From the NCBI RefSeq assembly GCF_032050975.1, contig NZ_CP116967.1, forward strand, positions 3,717,001-3,781,000: 64,000 bases of DNA, written 5' to 3'. The DNA comes from Candidatus Nitrospira allomarina (GTDB lineage Bacteria; Nitrospirota; Nitrospiria; Nitrospirales; UBA8639). Positions 2,540 through 16,137 of this stretch are shown here, one piece after another (position 1 is the first letter of the stretch; each line of letters begins with the position of its first letter). Under the pieces are notes generated by a model that worked only from the letters and a program-made list of their open reading frames with translations, was not told where the DNA came from and searched no databases. The translations under genes and the position numbers were made by a program.

Positions 2540-4081
2540 ATGCGGAATTGGTTCACCCAAATCAGGAATGCAGGAAAAGTCATGGCTCTATCCTTGTGTT
2601 GGATCCTGCTGACTGCCTCCGTTTCGCAGAGCGAAGAACCCCACAAACAACCATCTCCTCCCATAGATGATCCTTTCTTGCTATGGCGATTGGATGCAGT
2701 CAGGAAAAGAACCAGAGACATTCCTCAAAATGTATGGGAGCGGATTCGAAACGGTCAGAAGTGGACCTGGAATGAATATCCTGATCAAGTGCTTATTCAG
2801 GAAGAAAACGTTATCAAATGGCCCCGGTATTTGTCCGCTGCCCTAAATACCCCCGAGTGGTTGGATCTGGGCTTTACCAATCGAGTTCGTCGAGAAGGAT
2901 TTGATTACCCTTTTAAGGCCGACCAGAAAGGCAATACCTGGACCTGGAATCAGCGAACCCGCTTTCGGGCCACGACCAAATGGAAGGTTTTCCGGGCTGA
3001 GCTAGAGTTTCAAGGAGCGAATTCCGGTGAACAGTCCAATACGGACGTCGTTGGTTCTTCCACGTTCAATGCGGCCAATATCCAACAATTGTTTGTGTCT
3101 ATGACTCTCCCAAGTTTCCTGGAGACCGGCCTTCGAACGGATCTTCACGTCGGTCGCATTAATATGGATGTCGGGTCAAGACGCCTCGTCGCTCGTTCTC
3201 GTTTTCCAAATACCGCCCAACCCTTTGATGGTATTCATTGGAGAGTAGCTGAGACCAATCAGTGGTTTTTCCGCGCCTTTTTTTCGGAAGTTGTTTCCGA
3301 TAACAACAACAGGAATCGCTTTGGCTTGTTTACGAATGGAGGTAATTATTTCTGGGGGCTTTCGTATGAAAACTCGCACGTTTCCTGGGCCAGAACCCAA
3401 CTCTACTATTTTGGCAGGGATGAAAAGGAGAAGAAAGGAGGAACCGAACGAGAGCATTCAACATTAGGAGTCCGGGTCTATCAACGACCGGAAATTGGAG
3501 CGTATGATTATGAAGCGGAATCTGCCTGGCAATTCGGTACATTGGACAACATGGATCATTTTGCGTACCTCCAACATTTCTCCCTTGGCTATACCTTTGC
3601 CTTTCCATGGTCACCAAGGATTTTGGCCATGTATGATTATGCCAGTGGCACAAAAAATCCTAATGGGAACCAAAGCCATACTTTCGATAGCCTCTTTGGT
3701 GCGCGCAATTTTGAATATACCTCCACCAGTCTCTTCGGCCCTTTCTTTCGTTCCAACATCAGCTCGCCTGGCATCCGGCTGATCACTCACCCACTTCCAA
3801 CCTTGGATATCAATGTGAAATACCGGGTCTGGTATTTGGCCCAATCCCGGGATAAGTGGGTCAACTCCGGCATGCAAGATCCAACGGGAGCCGCAGGAAA
3901 TTTTTTAGGACAGGATGTGCAAGTCAGACTTCAATGGCGTCCTTCGCCAAGCTTCATCATTGATGCCGGCTATGAACACTTCTTTAAGGGCTCTTATATT
4001 AAAAATCAGACTGATGTGCCAGGAAATCCTCCAGCCAATGATACCAATTACTTCTATATCCAAACAGAAGTCAGATTTTAG
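2540..4081 (+). CDS. Alginate-export family outer-membrane porin
   Basis: A 513-residue outer-membrane protein with a signal peptide (residues 1-31, ending near SVSQSEE). It fits the Alginate_exp barrel family: the mid-region carries the 'GRinMDvGSRRLvaRsrFpNTaqpFDGihW' block (around residues 201-233), a hallmark of this family, followed by long amphipathic strands and a C-terminal aromatic residue (TEVRF). Members form wide 18-strand channels; AlgE exports alginate, but most relatives serve unknown solutes. No polysaccharide-biosynthesis genes lie nearby, so alginate export should not be assumed. It stands alone, with gaps of more than 300 bases on both sides. Confidence 0.85.
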   Translation: MRNWFTQIRNAGKVMALSLCWILLTASVSQSEEPHKQPSPPIDDPFLLWRLDAVRKRTRDIPQNVWERIRNGQKWTWNEYPDQVLIQEENVIKWPRYLSAALNTPEWLDLGFTNRVRREGFDYPFKADQKGNTWTWNQRTRFRATTKWKVFRAELEFQGANSGEQSNTDVVGSSTFNAANIQQLFVSMTLPSFLETGLRTDLHVGRINMDVGSRRLVARSRFPNTAQPFDGIHWRVAETNQWFFRAFFSEVVSDNNNRNRFGLFTNGGNYFWGLSYENSHVSWARTQLYYFGRDEKEKKGGTEREHSTLGVRVYQRPEIGAYDYEAESAWQFGTLDNMDHFAYLQHFSLGYTFAFPWSPRILAMYDYASGTKNPNGNQSHTFDSLFGARNFEYTSTSLFGPFFRSNISSPGIRLITHPLPTLDINVKYRVWYLAQSRDKWVNSGMQDPTGAAGNFLGQDVQVRLQWRPSPSFIIDAGYEHFFKGSYIKNQTDVPGNPPANDTNYFYIQTEVRF

Positions 4082-8861: not shown

Positions 8862-10310
8862 ATGCCAAAATGTAGTGCCATGCTCCTGAGCCTCCTGATC
8901 GCCTTCGGCTGCACCATGGGGCCGGATTACAAGCGGCCCGATATTCCGACGTCCGATTCCTGGCGGCTCGCACCCGACACATCTGAATCCATCGCCAATA
9001 TACCGTGGTGGGAGTTGTTCAAGGATGAAGAACTTCAAAAACTCATCCATACCGCTTTAGAGGAGAATCTTGACCTGCGAGTTGCGGCCGCGGCGGTTGA
9101 GGAATTTAACAACCAACTGGTCATCGCTCAATTCGACCTCGCCCCTTCCCTGGATTATTCCGGCGATGGCTTGTTCTATCACAACACGAATAATGGACTC
9201 TCCACTGGAGGCGGATCGATTCTCCCTGGGCAAGCCGCTGGAAGAAGCGGACGCGGGAACCTTGACTATTCGAGGGAATCCTTCATGGGGGGCATCAAAT
9301 GGGAAGTCGATCTTTGGGGAAGGATTCGCCGGAACGTCGAAGCCACCAGAGCGGAATTACTGGCACGAGTGGAAAACCAGCGCGGGGTCGTCATCGCGCT
9401 GGTCAGTGACGTCGCCCAATCCTACTTCACCCTCCGTGCTCTTGATCTTCAGGTGCAAATTGCCAAACGCACGCTCAAAGTCTGGGACGAAGCCGTGAGA
9501 CTCAGTCGGTCGCAATATGAACACGGGTATGCTTCGAAGTTGGATCTGGATCGATTCGAGGCCGAACAGGCTGGCACGAGAGCACAGTTGGCAAATCTGG
9601 AGCAGCAGGGAGTTCAAGCAGAGAACCGGATTAGCGTCCTATTAGGACAACGGCCGATGGCCATCCCGCGTGGGTTTGGGCTCACGGAACAACCTCTGCC
9701 ACCGGAAATACCGGTCGGATTGCCTTCTAGTCTTCTGAGTCAGCGCCCCGATATTCTGGAGGCGGAACAGAAACTCATCGCATCCAATGCAAATATCGGT
9801 GTGGCCCAGGCTCTACGCTTTCCTCAATTCAGTATCAACGGCGGTGGTGGGGTAGCTGGTTTTCAAATAAATTCCATGGGAACCGGACCGTTCGCAACGG
9901 TTGGAGTCGCAGGCACCTTGACCGGTCCACTTTTCAACGCGACGGCACTTGGCTACGGGGTGGGAATTGCAACCGCACAAGAACAACAGGCCCTTGCCCG
10001 GTATGAGTTGGCCATTCTCAATGCGTTTAGAGAAGTTGAGGATTCATTGATCACGATTACGAAAACCCGCGAACAACGTGAGGCACAGGAATCCCAGGTT
10101 GCATCCCTTAAGTCCGCGTTGAATTTCGCAGACAAACGTTACCGGGGAGGGTTTGCCTCCTACCTGGATGTCTTATCAGCACAACGGGACCTCTTTCAGG
10201 CCGAACTGAGCCTGGTCTCAACCAGGCAGCAACATCTAAGTTCCATCGTCCGGCTCTACAAAGCCCTGGGTGGCGGTTGGACCCCTTCCGAGGGAGAACA
10301 ACAAGGATGA
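8862..10310 (+). CDS. NodT-family outer-membrane efflux lipoprotein
   Basis: A 482-residue TolC-like outer-membrane factor. The open frame runs back to 8724 inside the pump gene, but the ATG at 8862, one nt after the pump stop, gives a correct lipoprotein signal (lipobox AFGC at residues 14-17) followed by the family-typical 'MGPDYKRP'. Two outer-membrane-factor repeats follow: 'WWELFKDEELQKLIHTALEENLDLRVAAAAVEE' near residues 46-80, and 'LLSQRPDILEAEQKLIASNANIGVAQALRFPQ' near 290-325, with 'RYRGGFASYLDVLSAQRDLF' near the C-terminus. It completes the tripartite pump. Lipidation is common in OprM/NodT proteins. Confidence 0.93.
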   Translation: MPKCSAMLLSLLIAFGCTMGPDYKRPDIPTSDSWRLAPDTSESIANIPWWELFKDEELQKLIHTALEENLDLRVAAAAVEEFNNQLVIAQFDLAPSLDYSGDGLFYHNTNNGLSTGGGSILPGQAAGRSGRGNLDYSRESFMGGIKWEVDLWGRIRRNVEATRAELLARVENQRGVVIALVSDVAQSYFTLRALDLQVQIAKRTLKVWDEAVRLSRSQYEHGYASKLDLDRFEAEQAGTRAQLANLEQQGVQAENRISVLLGQRPMAIPRGFGLTEQPLPPEIPVGLPSSLLSQRPDILEAEQKLIASNANIGVAQALRFPQFSINGGGGVAGFQINSMGTGPFATVGVAGTLTGPLFNATALGYGVGIATAQEQQALARYELAILNAFREVEDSLITITKTREQREAQESQVASLKSALNFADKRYRGGFASYLDVLSAQRDLFQAELSLVSTRQQHLSSIVRLYKALGGGWTPSEGEQQG

Positions 10311-10750
10311 GAGCTCTCCCTCAACGTTGGACTGCTCCAGGAATCGGAACATGGTCGGAGAGGGTCAATTGGAAGGAAAGGATAAATTATTAGAACACGC
10401 AGTTTTTTTTCGAGAGAATCATTCTTCTGTTCTCACAAACAGGAGGCTTCATTCAGGGGTTATTGAGATTCTCCACCTGCAACAACAGAAGGCAGCTTCT
10501 TAATTGTCTGAATACGTGAGAGTGGTGACAGGCTGTTCATCCCGTTCCTTCGACGAAATTTTGGATTCTCATCATCACTCACATACTGGTATGGCCAGGT
10601 GCGGTGTGACGGCCACAGACCACGCATCGGAGATGGCTTTTTCTTGGGGGAAATTTAAACCATTTCTGGAACACATTACGGACTGACTTCTTTCATGTTG
10701 TATGACTGGACATTCCTGGTCTGGCACATAACTCAGTGAAAGGGAGGTGA
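10311..10750. other. Intergenic stretch
   Basis: About 440 bases between the efflux operon and the MlaA-fusion gene. Short frames are open but show no protein-like pattern. GGGAGGTG lies just before the next ATG at 10751. No terminator with a T-run was found. Confidence 0.4.
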
Positions 10751-13021
10751 ATGGTCAAACGGGTCTTCTTGTTTTTCATGCTGTCGATGGTGGGCTGGTT
10801 TTCCTCTTTCAGTCAGGCTCAGGAGGCTGGCTACGATTATCCTGATGTGAGTCCATATGCCGCGACAGTAATTGGAACTCCGGTGGCACTAAAAGCCGAA
10901 CTTCCCCAGCATATCCCCATTGAAGACCGTGAATTGAATGTATTTCCAGATCGCGCTCTCCCCGACATTCTCTGGTATGGGGAGAATATGCGGTATTCAT
11001 TGGTGACCCAAGACAAACCCTCACCGTTGATATTTGTCATCGCCGGGACCGGCGCAGGGTATAATTCTGAAAAGATGCAGGTTCTGCAGCGAGCATTTTT
11101 TCAGGCGGGCTTCCATGTTCTCTCTTTATCCTCCCCTACTCATCCCGACTTTATCGTCTCGGCCTCCCGAACCGGGATCCCCGGTCATCTTCTGGAAGAT
11201 TCACAAGACTTGTATCGAGTCATGCGATTGGCCTGGCTGGACATTGAACACGAAATCGAGGTCACAGAGTTTTATCTCACGGGATACAGTTTGGGCGCGG
11301 CCCAGGCGGCCTTTGTGTCCCAACTTGACGGCGAACAGGACGATTTCCATTTCACAAAAGTTCTGCTGATCAACCCGCCGGTAAGCTTATACACCTCGAC
11401 CTCCATCCTTGATGACCTGCTGGCTAACAATATTCCCGGCGGAATGGATCAATTTCCGGATTTTTTCGACAACGTGTTTCATACCTTTTCGGAAGAATAC
11501 CAGCATGGTGAATTCGTGAGTCTTAGCGGTGAATTTTTATATTCAGCCTATAAACACCGGCATCTTCCGGATGAGCTCCTAGCCGCACTCATTGGCACCT
11601 CGTTTCGCCTCTCATCCGCAAATATGGTTTTTACATCCGACGTCCTGACCAATTCGGGATATATCAAACCGAAAAATCTGGTGTTGTCGGCAACCGACTC
11701 GGTGACGGACTATTTTAAAGTCTCCAATCATGTGACATTTTTGGATTATTTCCGTGAAATGTTTTACCCGTTTTTTCAAGCTAGATACCCCGGGATGACG
11801 GAACAGCAGCTCATCGCAAACCTGAGTTTGGCCACACTGGAGGAATACCTAAGACACACCCCGAAAGTCGGACTTCTGCATAATGCGGATGACATCATCC
11901 TTGCGCCCGGCGAATTGGATTATCTCAAGACATTATTCGGGCCGCGGGCCAAAATTTATCCCCGGGGAGGACATTGCGGCAACCTGGATCACAGGACCAC
12001 CCTGAATTATATCGTGGATTTCTTTCGAAACCCTCTCCCCCCAAACACGGTTCAGCACCCTGAAACCATGCTCCCGACGCCCGGACCGATGGCTGGTGGC
12101 TACCCGACGCATCAGGCAGCTGGACTGAACGATTTTCCTGCCCCTCGCATCCCACAGAGAATTTCATACCCATCCTCTCTCGACTTCCCATCTCAACTCG
12201 ATCAACAAATCCAGAACTTAGAGAGCAAGCTTCAAGAATCTCATGCCTATCTGCAGGCCGCACAAGCCCGGGCGACAGCCTCGGAAAACATTCCTGACGC
12301 TGCGCTAAGGGTTAGTACCCGCAGCGCGGAGGACGCTGAAGGTGGAAGGATTGAACCGGCGAAACGGCCAATAGAGGACGTCGTGCATCCTGACGCCAGA
12401 TATCTGGTGGATGTCTATGATCCCATAGAAGGGTTTAACCGGGGGACGTATAAGTTTAATGCACAGTTTGATGAATATGTTTTTCTGCCTGTGGTGGAAG
12501 GGTATGAAGCCGTCATGCCGGATTTTTTCGAGGATCGAATCTCAAATTTTTTCTCGAATATTGCCGACATCCGTAATCTGATCAACTCGATGCTTCAACT
12601 CAAGGGGGAAGCGACACTGAACACCTTGGGACGGTTTCTCATCAATTGCACTTTCGGATTAGGAGGATTTTTCGATCATGCCACTCCGTTAGGATTGCTG
12701 CAACAAACCGAGGATTTCGGCCAAACGCTAGGACATTACGGATTGAACCCGGGCGCCTATGTCGTACTTCCCATTTTTGGGCCTTCATCAATTAGAGATA
12801 CGACCGGTCTGCTGACAGATTCCGCGGCCAGCATCTTCTATTTATACACTCCTTTGCATTTAAATCATCATTTTGAACGTAGTGTTCCCTTCAGTCTGAC
12901 ATGGGGAGTGGATATGAGGCATCAGTTGAGTTTTCGTTATTACCAAACGGGCTCTCCGTTCGAATATGACCTGATTCGGTTCCTTTATACCAAATATCGG
13001 GAATTGGAAATTGCCAAGTAG
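10751..13021 (+). CDS. Fusion of serine alpha/beta hydrolase and MlaA/VacJ
   Basis: A 756-residue exported fusion protein. Residues 1-24 are a signal peptide with no lipobox cysteine. Residues about 65-430 form an alpha/beta hydrolase: 'FVIAGTGAGY' strand/oxyanion region, nucleophile elbow GYSLG (Ser180), acid 'NADD' (Asp380/381) and 'GGHCG' (His408). A Pro/Gln-rich linker with a short coiled-coil-like stretch (about 430-545) leads to a complete MlaA domain (about 553-756; 'DVYDPIEGFNRGTYKFN', 'NLINSMLQLKGEATLNTLGRFLIN', 'GQTLGHYGL', 'YVVLPIFGPSSIRD'). MlaA is the outer-membrane part of retrograde phospholipid transport and is normally a lipoprotein of about 250 residues. Here it is probably held by its own membrane helices. 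The fused hydrolase suggests a lipase or thioesterase working on lipids reached by MlaA; that is inference. Confidence 0.9.
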   Translation: MVKRVFLFFMLSMVGWFSSFSQAQEAGYDYPDVSPYAATVIGTPVALKAELPQHIPIEDRELNVFPDRALPDILWYGENMRYSLVTQDKPSPLIFVIAGTGAGYNSEKMQVLQRAFFQAGFHVLSLSSPTHPDFIVSASRTGIPGHLLEDSQDLYRVMRLAWLDIEHEIEVTEFYLTGYSLGAAQAAFVSQLDGEQDDFHFTKVLLINPPVSLYTSTSILDDLLANNIPGGMDQFPDFFDNVFHTFSEEYQHGEFVSLSGEFLYSAYKHRHLPDELLAALIGTSFRLSSANMVFTSDVLTNSGYIKPKNLVLSATDSVTDYFKVSNHVTFLDYFREMFYPFFQARYPGMTEQQLIANLSLATLEEYLRHTPKVGLLHNADDIILAPGELDYLKTLFGPRAKIYPRGGHCGNLDHRTTLNYIVDFFRNPLPPNTVQHPETMLPTPGPMAGGYPTHQAAGLNDFPAPRIPQRISYPSSLDFPSQLDQQIQNLESKLQESHAYLQAAQARATASENIPDAALRVSTRSAEDAEGGRIEPAKRPIEDVVHPDARYLVDVYDPIEGFNRGTYKFNAQFDEYVFLPVVEGYEAVMPDFFEDRISNFFSNIADIRNLINSMLQLKGEATLNTLGRFLINCTFGLGGFFDHATPLGLLQQTEDFGQTLGHYGLNPGAYVVLPIFGPSSIRDTTGLLTDSAASIFYLYTPLHLNHHFERSVPFSLTWGVDMRHQLSFRYYQTGSPFEYDLIRFLYTKYRELEIAK

Positions 13022-13071
13022 CCCGGTTTGGGGACTTTGCAGGTTTATCGCATTCTTTGTAAGATGACGTC

Positions 13072-13701
13072 ATGATGATTCAATCGCTGCAGAGAAAGAC
13101 CCTCACGAATCTTGTCCGAACAGGCCTGCTGCTGTTTCTTTTAGGTTATGGAGGGGGTAGTGAACAAGCCTATGGAGATTCATTGAACGATGACCTCGTG
13201 GATCTCACAGGAGGAGTCGTTCCCTTGCTCTCCTATGATCCCGGAGGAAGTTTCTCCGGCGGAGGCGAATTGTTTTCGGGAGGAAGGCTTTCCTCTCGTG
13301 GGGATGTCCGGTATCTGGTCCGATTGAAAAATCAAACCGGCGACCCCATTGAGGCCGATTCCCTTATTCTCGTCGTAGACAAAATTCAAGAAATGGCACG
13401 GCTTCGTGATGTGACCACCAGCCTCGATATTCAAGGAACCGATGGGAATACTGAAGATGGGAAACCGTATTTTCGGGTTCCGGTTGATGGCCAGGCAGAA
13501 CTCCCCCCATACGGTGAAAGTGAATCGTTTCCCATCGAAATAAAGAACCCTGACCTTCTTCGCTTATATCCTCCGGTTTTACGAGTCCGGGGAATCCGAA
13601 AGACCGCCTCTCATGCGTATCAAGGTGCGCTGCAGAATCTGATCCAGGAAGGTGTCGTGACTCCGGAGGAAGCCAAAAAGTCGATAGACCAATCGCAATA
13701 G
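13072..13701 (+). CDS. Secreted protein of unknown function
   Basis: A 209-residue protein with an N-terminal signal peptide (hydrophobic segment about residues 16-37). The middle is beta-rich and looks Ig-like ('YLVRLKNQTGDPIEADSLILVVDKIQEMA', then a DGN-type loop and 'ELPPYGESESFPIEIKNPD'). It ends in a short helical segment ('GALQNLIQEGVVTPEEAKKSI'), which resembles the short C-terminal helical region of secretory proteins. No family was recognised. It follows the MlaA fusion by 50 nt and precedes a helical-repeat protein by under 60 nt on the same strand, so the three probably share a transcript and may act together at the envelope. Confidence 0.7.
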   Translation: MMIQSLQRKTLTNLVRTGLLLFLLGYGGGSEQAYGDSLNDDLVDLTGGVVPLLSYDPGGSFSGGGELFSGGRLSSRGDVRYLVRLKNQTGDPIEADSLILVVDKIQEMARLRDVTTSLDIQGTDGNTEDGKPYFRVPVDGQAELPPYGESESFPIEIKNPDLLRLYPPVLRVRGIRKTASHAYQGALQNLIQEGVVTPEEAKKSIDQSQ

Positions 13702-13708
13702 ACGCAAC

Positions 13709-14791
13709 GTGGAAAGTCATTGCCTGATGAAATTCCGCAGGACTCACGAAGGGATGAGAATAGTGAACAAACATATTCAAGCCTTGAGAATCAGCTTATT
13801 CGGTGTGATGCTCTTCTTCATGGTCAGCATCGAAACGGTGCCCGCCTCAATGGTAGGGAGCCTGAATGAACCCAACCCCGTAAGCGGCCATTCCATTTCT
13901 CTCAAAGAAATCACGCCTGCCGATGTCCTGGCCCGGGTTCAGATGCTTCGTGAGACCCTGGAATTGATCCGGTTTGAAATGGGAAAACCGTTGGCAATCC
14001 AATCCGAAGCCATCGTCACCAATGTTCACTCCCATGAAGCCTATTTCCAGGCCCTTACCCTCTTTCATAAGGCCGACCGTCTCGCGCTGGAACTCACCGG
14101 AAGTACAGGAATTTCACCGGAACCTATTTCCCTTTCCGCTCTTGCACCCTTGCATATCTGGAAATTGGTGAACGCAAGCTACCTTCGTATTTTGGCCATC
14201 AAGGAGGAATTAGGCCTGAAGGAAATTATTTCAGAACGCCCCGAAGATCCCTCGACCACTCTGACAGAAACCGGACGGGCCATTGTGCAAGCCAACCGGC
14301 AAATCAACTTACTGCAGGAGCGACACTTCTCACCTAGTGATGTGTCGCAACAAGTGCTTCTGGCCAGTCAGTATGCTAAACGGTTGCTGGCCAGGTTTCC
14401 CCAACCAAAGGAGCCTTCGGAGACTCCCCCGCTCGAAAGGGGCAAGCAGCCGGTCGATGTATTCCTTCGCCTGGTTGAATGCTATGCCATTCTGGAAACA
14501 ATTGCGCATCAGTCCGGCATACCTGTTCTTCATCTTGATTTGCCGACCGCGAAAAATGTCGGCCATTCCCGGCGATTGGAACCAAGCGACGTCTATGATA
14601 TGGCCACCCTCCTGGTTTCGGACCTGGCCTATCTCCACGCGCAACTCAAACAAATTGATGCTCCAAGGCCTATTCCATATCCGGGCCGCATGTTTCCTTC
14701 ACATGTCTACCAACAAGCTACCGTGCTTCTACAGCAGTTAAAGACACTGGAACAGTTAGTCACAACCGATCCGAAATGGCTCTCCCGATAG
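13709..14791 (+). CDS. Secreted helical-repeat protein, paralogue 1
   Basis: An exported protein of unknown function, 360 residues from the first ATG. The GTG at 13763, 9 nt after AAGGG, is a better start and gives a normal signal peptide (residues 19-47 of the long form). The mature part is built of about eight units, each starting with a 'P-x-x-V-[YFLW]' turn followed by a Leu-rich helix. They start near residues 69 (TPADVL), 107 (HSHEAY), 147 (PLHIWK), 184 (weak), 208 (SPSDVS), 248 (PVDVFL), 292 (PSDVYD) and 330 (PSHVYQ), mostly 37-44 residues apart. It is clearly related along its whole length to the protein on the opposite strand at 15124-16137. No known family was recognised. Confidence 0.8.
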   Translation: MESHCLMKFRRTHEGMRIVNKHIQALRISLFGVMLFFMVSIETVPASMVGSLNEPNPVSGHSISLKEITPADVLARVQMLRETLELIRFEMGKPLAIQSEAIVTNVHSHEAYFQALTLFHKADRLALELTGSTGISPEPISLSALAPLHIWKLVNASYLRILAIKEELGLKEIISERPEDPSTTLTETGRAIVQANRQINLLQERHFSPSDVSQQVLLASQYAKRLLARFPQPKEPSETPPLERGKQPVDVFLRLVECYAILETIAHQSGIPVLHLDLPTAKNVGHSRRLEPSDVYDMATLLVSDLAYLHAQLKQIDAPRPIPYPGRMFPSHVYQQATVLLQQLKTLEQLVTTDPKWLSR

Positions 14792-15123
14792 ACAATTGAA
14801 CTTTTCTCTCATTCATTCATTCCATCACCCGCTTAGTCCCAAGGTAAATCACACTCCGGAAATCCTTGCCAAAGACCGTTGCCCGACAGACGGCACCACG
14901 TTGAGGAAACCGAACCGTACGCGTGGCAAGGCCACGTGCCCAACCATGAAGCGCTGGAACGAGCATACAACCTGGCGCCGGCAACCACAAAAATCATCGG
15001 CTCTTTTCAATCTCGAAACGAAAAAAGAATTTCAAACAAATTTCGACATGCCCAACGCCTTATATTGATAGCTCATGTCATAATAGGTGAGCTGTTGGTT
15101 CGGTCTTCATTCAGGCCAACAGT
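14792..15123. other. Convergent intergenic stretch between the two paralogues
   Basis: About 330 bases between the stops of two converging paralogous genes. An open frame runs from 14879 to 15145 but lacks a start signal, runs into the opposing gene and has no protein-like pattern. Nothing else was seen. Confidence 0.4.
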
Positions 15124-16137
15124 CTATTTGAGCCATTCGGGATGAGATTGAACCTGCGTGTGTAATACTTTCAATTGAGCCAGGAGTCCACCTACCTGTT
15201 GATACACATGGGAAGGCAGGATAGGACCATGAAGTCTGACAGGGGCTGGTGGAGGAATATGAGGAAGGTGGGCATGGAGATACGCAAGTTCAGAGATGAT
15301 CAGCGTTGCTAAATCGTAGACATCATTCGACTGAATATCGGGACGATCCAGATTCTGAGGGGCCAACGTTAACATTTGAATATGGGAGGCCCGTGCGATA
15401 TTTCCTAACACCATATAACAATCAATGAGATGGTCATAGCTATTCCATGACTTACGCCCTCGCTCAAGCGAAGGGAGAGGAGGCGGGGCGGGAGTGGAAG
15501 GAAATTGACGCAAAAGTTGTGTGGTGTAGTCGATGCCCAGGCCGACCAATTCTGCAGCATCTTTCGGAGAAAACTGATGCATCAGTAAAAGGTTGAGTTG
15601 GGTATTCGCCAATCCAATAACAAAAAAGACTTGATTGGGAGTAGTTTCACCATCGGCCAGGGCTTCACTGTTCGTCAGGGAAAGCCCTAATTGCTGTTTA
15701 AGAGACAGGAGTCGGCGCAAAGAGGTATCGATCATTTTCCAGACATGATAGGGACGTATATCGCCCGGATCCTCTTCTGTTCCCTCGACCTGCGATTTCT
15801 CGGTGAGTTCTGCGACCAACCTGGCCACTTTTTGATTAAGGGTTTTGGCTTGAAAGAACACCTCGTGAGGCGTCGCATTTTCAACCAGGAGGCCGATTTC
15901 GCGACTTTTGGGTCTTCCCATTTCAAAACGAATGTCGTCCAGTTCTTTCCGTACCAATTGCACACGTGCGAACACATCCGCCGGGGTGATGGATTCAATA
16001 GAAAGTTCATGACCACTCACGGGAGGAGGAGTGGTAATGTCCTTGGTCATTCCAAGACTTATCATTGGAAAACTGTTTAAAACCGCTATCATCACTCCAA
16101 CTTTGAGAATGGGTAATGGCTGAATGGTGAAATGCAT
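15124..16137 (-). CDS. Secreted helical-repeat protein, paralogue 2
   Basis: A 337-residue exported protein related to the one at 13709-14791 and pointing toward it. AAAGG lies about 9-13 nt before the ATG. The signal peptide covers about residues 1-30. The same eight-unit plan is visible: units start near residues 52 (TPADVF), 90 (PHEVFF), 129 (PYHVWK), 167 (PNQVFF), 191 (PKDAAE), 231 (weak), 270 (NDVYDL) and 308 (PSHVYQ). Best-kept positions shared by both paralogues include 'ITPADV.ARVQ', 'IRFEMG.P', 'S.LAYLHA.L' and 'PSHVYQQ'. The fold is probably an all-helical solenoid or bundle in the periplasm. Function unknown. Confidence 0.8.
   Translation of the reverse strand: MHFTIQPLPILKVGVMIAVLNSFPMISLGMTKDITTPPPVSGHELSIESITPADVFARVQLVRKELDDIRFEMGRPKSREIGLLVENATPHEVFFQAKTLNQKVARLVAELTEKSQVEGTEEDPGDIRPYHVWKMIDTSLRRLLSLKQQLGLSLTNSEALADGETTPNQVFFVIGLANTQLNLLLMHQFSPKDAAELVGLGIDYTTQLLRQFPSTPAPPPLPSLERGRKSWNSYDHLIDCYMVLGNIARASHIQMLTLAPQNLDRPDIQSNDVYDLATLIISELAYLHAHLPHIPPPAPVRLHGPILPSHVYQQVGGLLAQLKVLHTQVQSHPEWLK

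Follow-up and report, generated by a model that had tools for sequence, protein, structure and literature searches.

Among the genes of the window, by which we mean the whole 64,000-nucleotide stretch analyzed here (Candidatus Nitrospira allomarina, GCF_032050975.1, NZ_CP116967.1, positions 3,717,001 to 3,781,000, forward strand), one encodes a single chain of 756 residues in an exact, uninterrupted reading frame (Table 1), just as a first-pass annotation of this DNA had described it. The same annotation had assigned to this chain an N-terminal serine alpha/beta hydrolase and a full MlaA domain at about residues 553-756. Pfam searches bear out the latter directly, with PF04333 matched over the whole model at a score of 212 bits (cut-off 25). 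The hydrolase half gives a weak match to Abhydrolase_1 (E 0.035, below the Pfam cut-off); no NCBIfam or Pfam family exceeded its cut-off for this part in profile searches, and a search of PDB sequences using a profile of the hydrolase returned nothing meaningful. These are the only two matches in the fusion protein, in which the PLA1 domain (PF02253) was not found. The chain starts with a signal-like hydrophobic helix, and its sequence has no cysteine before residue 409; hence the lipobox is absent, as had been remarked earlier, which argues that the chain is not a lipoprotein. Promoter and terminator scans over 10300-14900 were uninformative and PADLOC gave no result.

Table 1. Features of the fusion gene and its surroundings, in window coordinates
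Feature	Positions	Strand	Evidence
Alginate-export-type beta-barrel	2540..4081	+	PF13372, E 1.5e-46
Ribosome-binding site GGGAGG, ATG 3 bases further on	10742..10747	+	Sequence
Predicted mlaY-mlaZ fusion gene, 756 aa	10751..13021	+	Uninterrupted ORF, Pfam, relatives, model
Predicted export signal, residues 1-24 (MVKRVFLFFMLSMVGWFSSFSQAQ), without cysteine	10751..10822	+	Sequence; hydrophobic helix 2-26 in AlphaFold2 model
Predicted MlaY-type alpha/beta hydrolase domain, residues about 28-428	10832..12034	+	Alignment, model, structure comparison
Ser180 of GYSLG, predicted nucleophile	11288..11290	+	Invariant in 19 hydrolases; spacing as MlaY S187
Asp381, predicted acid	11891..11893	+	Invariant; Ser +201 residues, as MlaY D388
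His408 of GGH, predicted base	11972..11974	+	Invariant; Asp +27 residues, as MlaY H415
Linker, residues 429-545, mostly disordered	12035..12385	+	pLDDT <50 at residues 435-480 and 508-528 (AlphaFold2 model); dN/dS
Long linker helix, residues 479-509, resembling the N-terminal helix of split MlaZ in L042	12185..12277	+	Model, alignment
MlaZ-type MlaA domain, residues 556-751	12416..13003	+	PF04333 E 7e-63; MlaZ clade 99/99; Z 19 to MlaA structures
209-aa protein, next gene, signal-like start	13072..13701	+	Conserved neighbor; no Pfam match
360-aa protein	13709..14791	+	No Pfam match above cut-off
337-aa protein, related to the 360-aa protein	15124..16137	-	No Pfam match above cut-off
AsmA/YhdP-like gene (phospholipid-transport family), two frames of 999 and 323 aa	16543..20581	-	

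Predicted structure and active site

An AlphaFold2 model of the fused chain, built on a 127-row alignment that included hydrolase-only and MlaA-only rows, has a mean pLDDT of 86.4 and a pTM of 0.83; with the 8 fused sequences alone the pLDDT was 29.5. In this model residues 38-430 align with alpha/beta hydrolases with Z scores of up to 20, and residues 554-756 with solved MlaA at a Z of 19 and about 31% identity. The predicted fold confirms that the N-terminal half is a genuine alpha/beta hydrolase, though one far from the Pfam models. Between the two domains the model places a long helix flanked by two stretches of low confidence.

Ser180 and His408 stand as the first reading had proposed, and for the acid, which had been given as Asp380 or Asp381, an alignment of 19 members of the hydrolase family points to Asp381, because position 380 varies whereas 381 is as invariant as the serine and the histidine. 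A proper triad, the lack of which had been named beforehand as refuting the idea of a lipase joined to a channel, is in place, and its spacing (S-201-D-27-H) is the same as that of the published triad of MlaY, Ser187, Asp388 and His415 (PMC11977310).

Relationship to the MlaY-MlaZ pair

In Pseudomonas aeruginosa PA3239 (MlaZ), a member of the MlaA family, has been proposed to extract misplaced phospholipid and hand it on for degradation by PA3238, or MlaY (PMC11131202, PMC12569750). Mutants in mlaY and mlaZ resist the loss of cardiolipin caused by sphingosine (PMC11977310), and the CtpA protease of this bacterium is affected only if both genes are overexpressed together (PMC12569750). The hydrolase of the window is 37-41% identical to its Pseudomonadaceae orthologs over about 400 residues (E about 1e-93 to 1e-101). 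The Pseudomonadaceae pair has as neighbors a lipid A acyltransferase, minC, minD and a pseudouridine synthase, a locus that we take to be the PA3238-PA3246 neighborhood of P. aeruginosa. Judged from these same-locus orthologs and from the triad numbers, on which the kinship with PA3238 rests, the window gene is a fusion of the known MlaY-MlaZ pair (PA3238/PA3239). In some Pseudomonadaceae mlaYZ is adjoined by a gene for a patatin-like protein, recognized by its GGGARAAYQVG start (L078 7988-9202 and L079 5491-6690, both on the minus strand); in L079 this gene also adjoins a lipid A acyltransferase. Genes for lipid enzymes are thus clustered at these loci.

When a collection of 84,980 species was scanned, 26 loci were recovered, in Nitrospirota, Desulfobacterota with related lineages, and Pseudomonadota, the last including Stutzerimonas and Azomonas. 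Among sampled genomes, the Pseudomonas order had the hydrolase in 26 of 245 (one match being marginal), the Desulfopila phylum in 8 of 247, the Gammaproteobacteria in 12 of 369 and the window's own phylum in 4 of 346, every one of these last in the window's family. Among the loci surveyed the fused form was not found outside this Nitrospirales family, the hydrolase there being a separate gene; a same-strand MlaA gene lies directly 3' of it in all 56 of the 56 unfused loci whose sequence extends beyond the hydrolase, mostly overlapping it or within about 40 bases. The MlaA partner carries a lipobox in most Desulfobacterota and generally lacks one in Pseudomonadaceae and the Nitrospirales family. 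Desulfopila aestuarii carries the pair twice, as separate copies (L068, L070).

In a tree of MlaA proteins the MlaA halves, whether from fused or from paired genes, fall into a single clade (56 rows, 99/99), separate from the canonical MlaA of the phylum, including the canonical copy of the window's genome. This placement bears on the notion that the fused half is a classical MlaA feeding MlaC, to which an unrelated hydrolase became joined by accident. The genome does have MlaC and MlaE, with two loci of each, but it also encodes a separate canonical MlaA with a lipobox (C1:878913); given in addition the position of the fused domain within the MlaZ clade and the recurrence of the pairing in at least three phyla, we regard such an accidental union as highly improbable. 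No match to PldA (PF02253, PLA1) was found in the window's genome.

Distribution and history of the fusion

Searches found the hydrolase in 10 of the 49 genomes of the window's Nitrospirales family, which suggests that the gene is dispensable. An in-frame MlaA domain follows it in the window's genome and in eight others, the fused relatives being 93% to 54% identical over the whole chain; in one of the eight (L053) it is cut by the end of a contig. An artefact of assembly, an objection that the first-pass annotation had itself raised, or of frame-shifting could in principle have joined two genes, and a sister genus does have two. We reject it as having a negligible chance of being correct, since the eight other assemblies carry the same fusion independently, those of the window's genome (G000) and of one relative (G308) are single contigs, and the frame is maintained across the linker.

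The two-gene form is found in a genome of another genus of the family (G303), where a hydrolase of 426 aa and an MlaA of 324 aa are separated by 12 bases. The split MlaA has its own signal-like start, again without a lipobox, and its helix-like N-terminal stretch (SLDGQIERLELKIQ...) can be aligned to the helix in the linker of the fused chain (BLAST, 278 residues, 53% identity). The fused rows are monophyletic, and the split pair is their sister, in the tree of MlaA (99/92 and 100/95) as well as in that of the hydrolase (95/64 and 99/97); this monophyly in both indicates that a single fusion event accounts for all of them. In the simplest history the stop codon and the second signal would have been lost and the helix retained as a linker.

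Codon comparisons of the fused genomes tested gave dN/dS values of 0.10-0.14 for the hydrolase, 0.06-0.12 for the MlaA half and 0.34-0.58 for the linker. By this measure both domains are under purifying selection, and the linker changes faster than either, yet with its reading frame preserved. These values weigh on the suggestion that the MlaA half transports nothing and only anchors a periplasmic esterase, with another substrate, to the outer membrane. The lack of a lipobox would indeed call for some other membrane attachment, and alpha/beta hydrolases are broad in substrate, but the MlaA domain is constrained as much as the hydrolase, the whole Pfam model is matched and pairing with MlaA is universal in the hydrolase family; we consider a mere anchor quite improbable. 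Less easily dismissed, albeit still unlikely, is the proposal that one polypeptide serves co-export and 1:1 amounts, the linker then being cut and MlaY and MlaZ working separately. The weakly conserved linker could be cut in the periplasm, as its two low-confidence stretches are predicted to be disordered and evolve fast, and split pairs function elsewhere. The linker nevertheless retains the long helix common to the split MlaZ of the sister genus, no cleavage signal was seen, and a freed MlaZ would be without a lipid anchor, although Pseudomonas MlaZ, too, generally lacks the lipobox.

Genomic neighborhood

Decayed copies of the fusion gene are present in three relatives (L048 17493-18126, L053 2385-3985, L055 208-2907). 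In L048 and L053 the decayed copy lies at the old site by the 209-aa gene and an intact copy is found elsewhere in the genome, a situation that probably reflects an old duplication after which one copy was lost. A functional link of the fusion to the adjacent 209-aa and 360-aa genes was set aside, because the sister clade keeps both beside the decayed fusion with the intact copy elsewhere; the 209-aa neighbor is probably not part of the fusion's function. The 360-aa and 337-aa genes are conserved neighbors of the fusion in several relatives. The nearby AsmA/YhdP-like gene is a single frame of 1035 or 1335 aa in relatives L047 and L048, and is possibly interrupted in the window's genome. In L050, L052 and L053 the gene immediately upstream of the fusion, or of its remnant, encodes a relative of the alginate-export-type barrel, and in L053 it is the decayed copy that adjoins it. 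MlaA of E. coli binds porins, and a barrel partner for the fusion is thus conceivable.

Proposed function

We think it very probable that the MlaY-MlaZ fusion extracts and hydrolyzes misplaced phospholipid in parallel to the canonical Mla route. The chain would be exported once through its N-terminal signal and, we infer, stay uncut, with its C-terminal MlaZ domain presumably forming an MlaA-type helical channel in the outer membrane. Misplaced phospholipids would exit the outer leaflet through this channel, and its pore would pass them to the active site of the tethered MlaY domain, which is predicted to lie on the periplasmic side and to cleave them by means of Ser180-Asp381-His408. The products, a fatty acid and a lysophospholipid or glycerophosphodiester, would then be recycled, with the canonical MlaA-MlaC-MlaE route active in the same cell. 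The substrate of the fusion could also be another lipid or an ester. More specifically, the fusion may be a self-contained extractor-phospholipase in which the MlaA pore feeds the tethered active site without MlaC and without ATP, a proposition that we find evenly balanced.

That cleavage is coupled to extraction had been put forward in the first-pass annotation as a new idea; it fits all the evidence, but the coupling has already been proposed for the two-protein MlaYZ, and it is the single-chain form that appears to be new. In the literature searched, which did not cover Guest et al. 2023 (doi 10.1073/pnas.2302546120), reportedly a study of MlaY-MlaZ (PA3238-PA3239) in Pseudomonas aeruginosa, we found no mention of an MlaA-hydrolase fusion. 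The MlaYZ proposal came from genetics in one species. The fusion adds an independent line of evidence for joint action of lipase and channel: as these are separate partner genes elsewhere, their union in one chain supports a single coupled step of extraction and destruction. It also sets a fixed ratio of lipase to channel and a fixed distance between them, and offers a one-gene construct for in vitro study of lipid hand-over from MlaA pore to lipase. If the self-contained reading is true, a single polypeptide would make up the entire MlaYZ pathway and be open to purification and reconstitution. Further, MlaYZ is not peculiar to Pseudomonas, the pair being patchily distributed in Nitrospirota, Desulfobacterota and Pseudomonadota.

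Comparison with known systems

With the canonical MlaA (VacJ) lipoprotein the fusion shares the MlaA fold and the full Pfam domain, but it differs in having no lipobox, in belonging to a different clade and in its attached lipase. PldA (OMPLA) has the same proposed job of destroying phospholipid that has strayed into the outer leaflet; however, it is an enzyme of the beta-barrel type that works within the membrane, whereas the fusion is predicted to use an alpha/beta hydrolase. P. aeruginosa reportedly lacks PldA (PMC10925693), and its MlaY-MlaZ system resembles the fusion in several respects: the hydrolase family, as judged by triad spacing and the Pseudomonadaceae orthologs, the MlaA subfamily, the order from lipase to channel, a channel without a lipobox, and a setting in which the canonical Mla route is present alongside and PldA is absent, as in the window's genome. 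The hydrolase sequences are nevertheless distant, as their level of identity indicates, and what is encoded by two genes in P. aeruginosa is in these Nitrospirales one chain with a helical linker.
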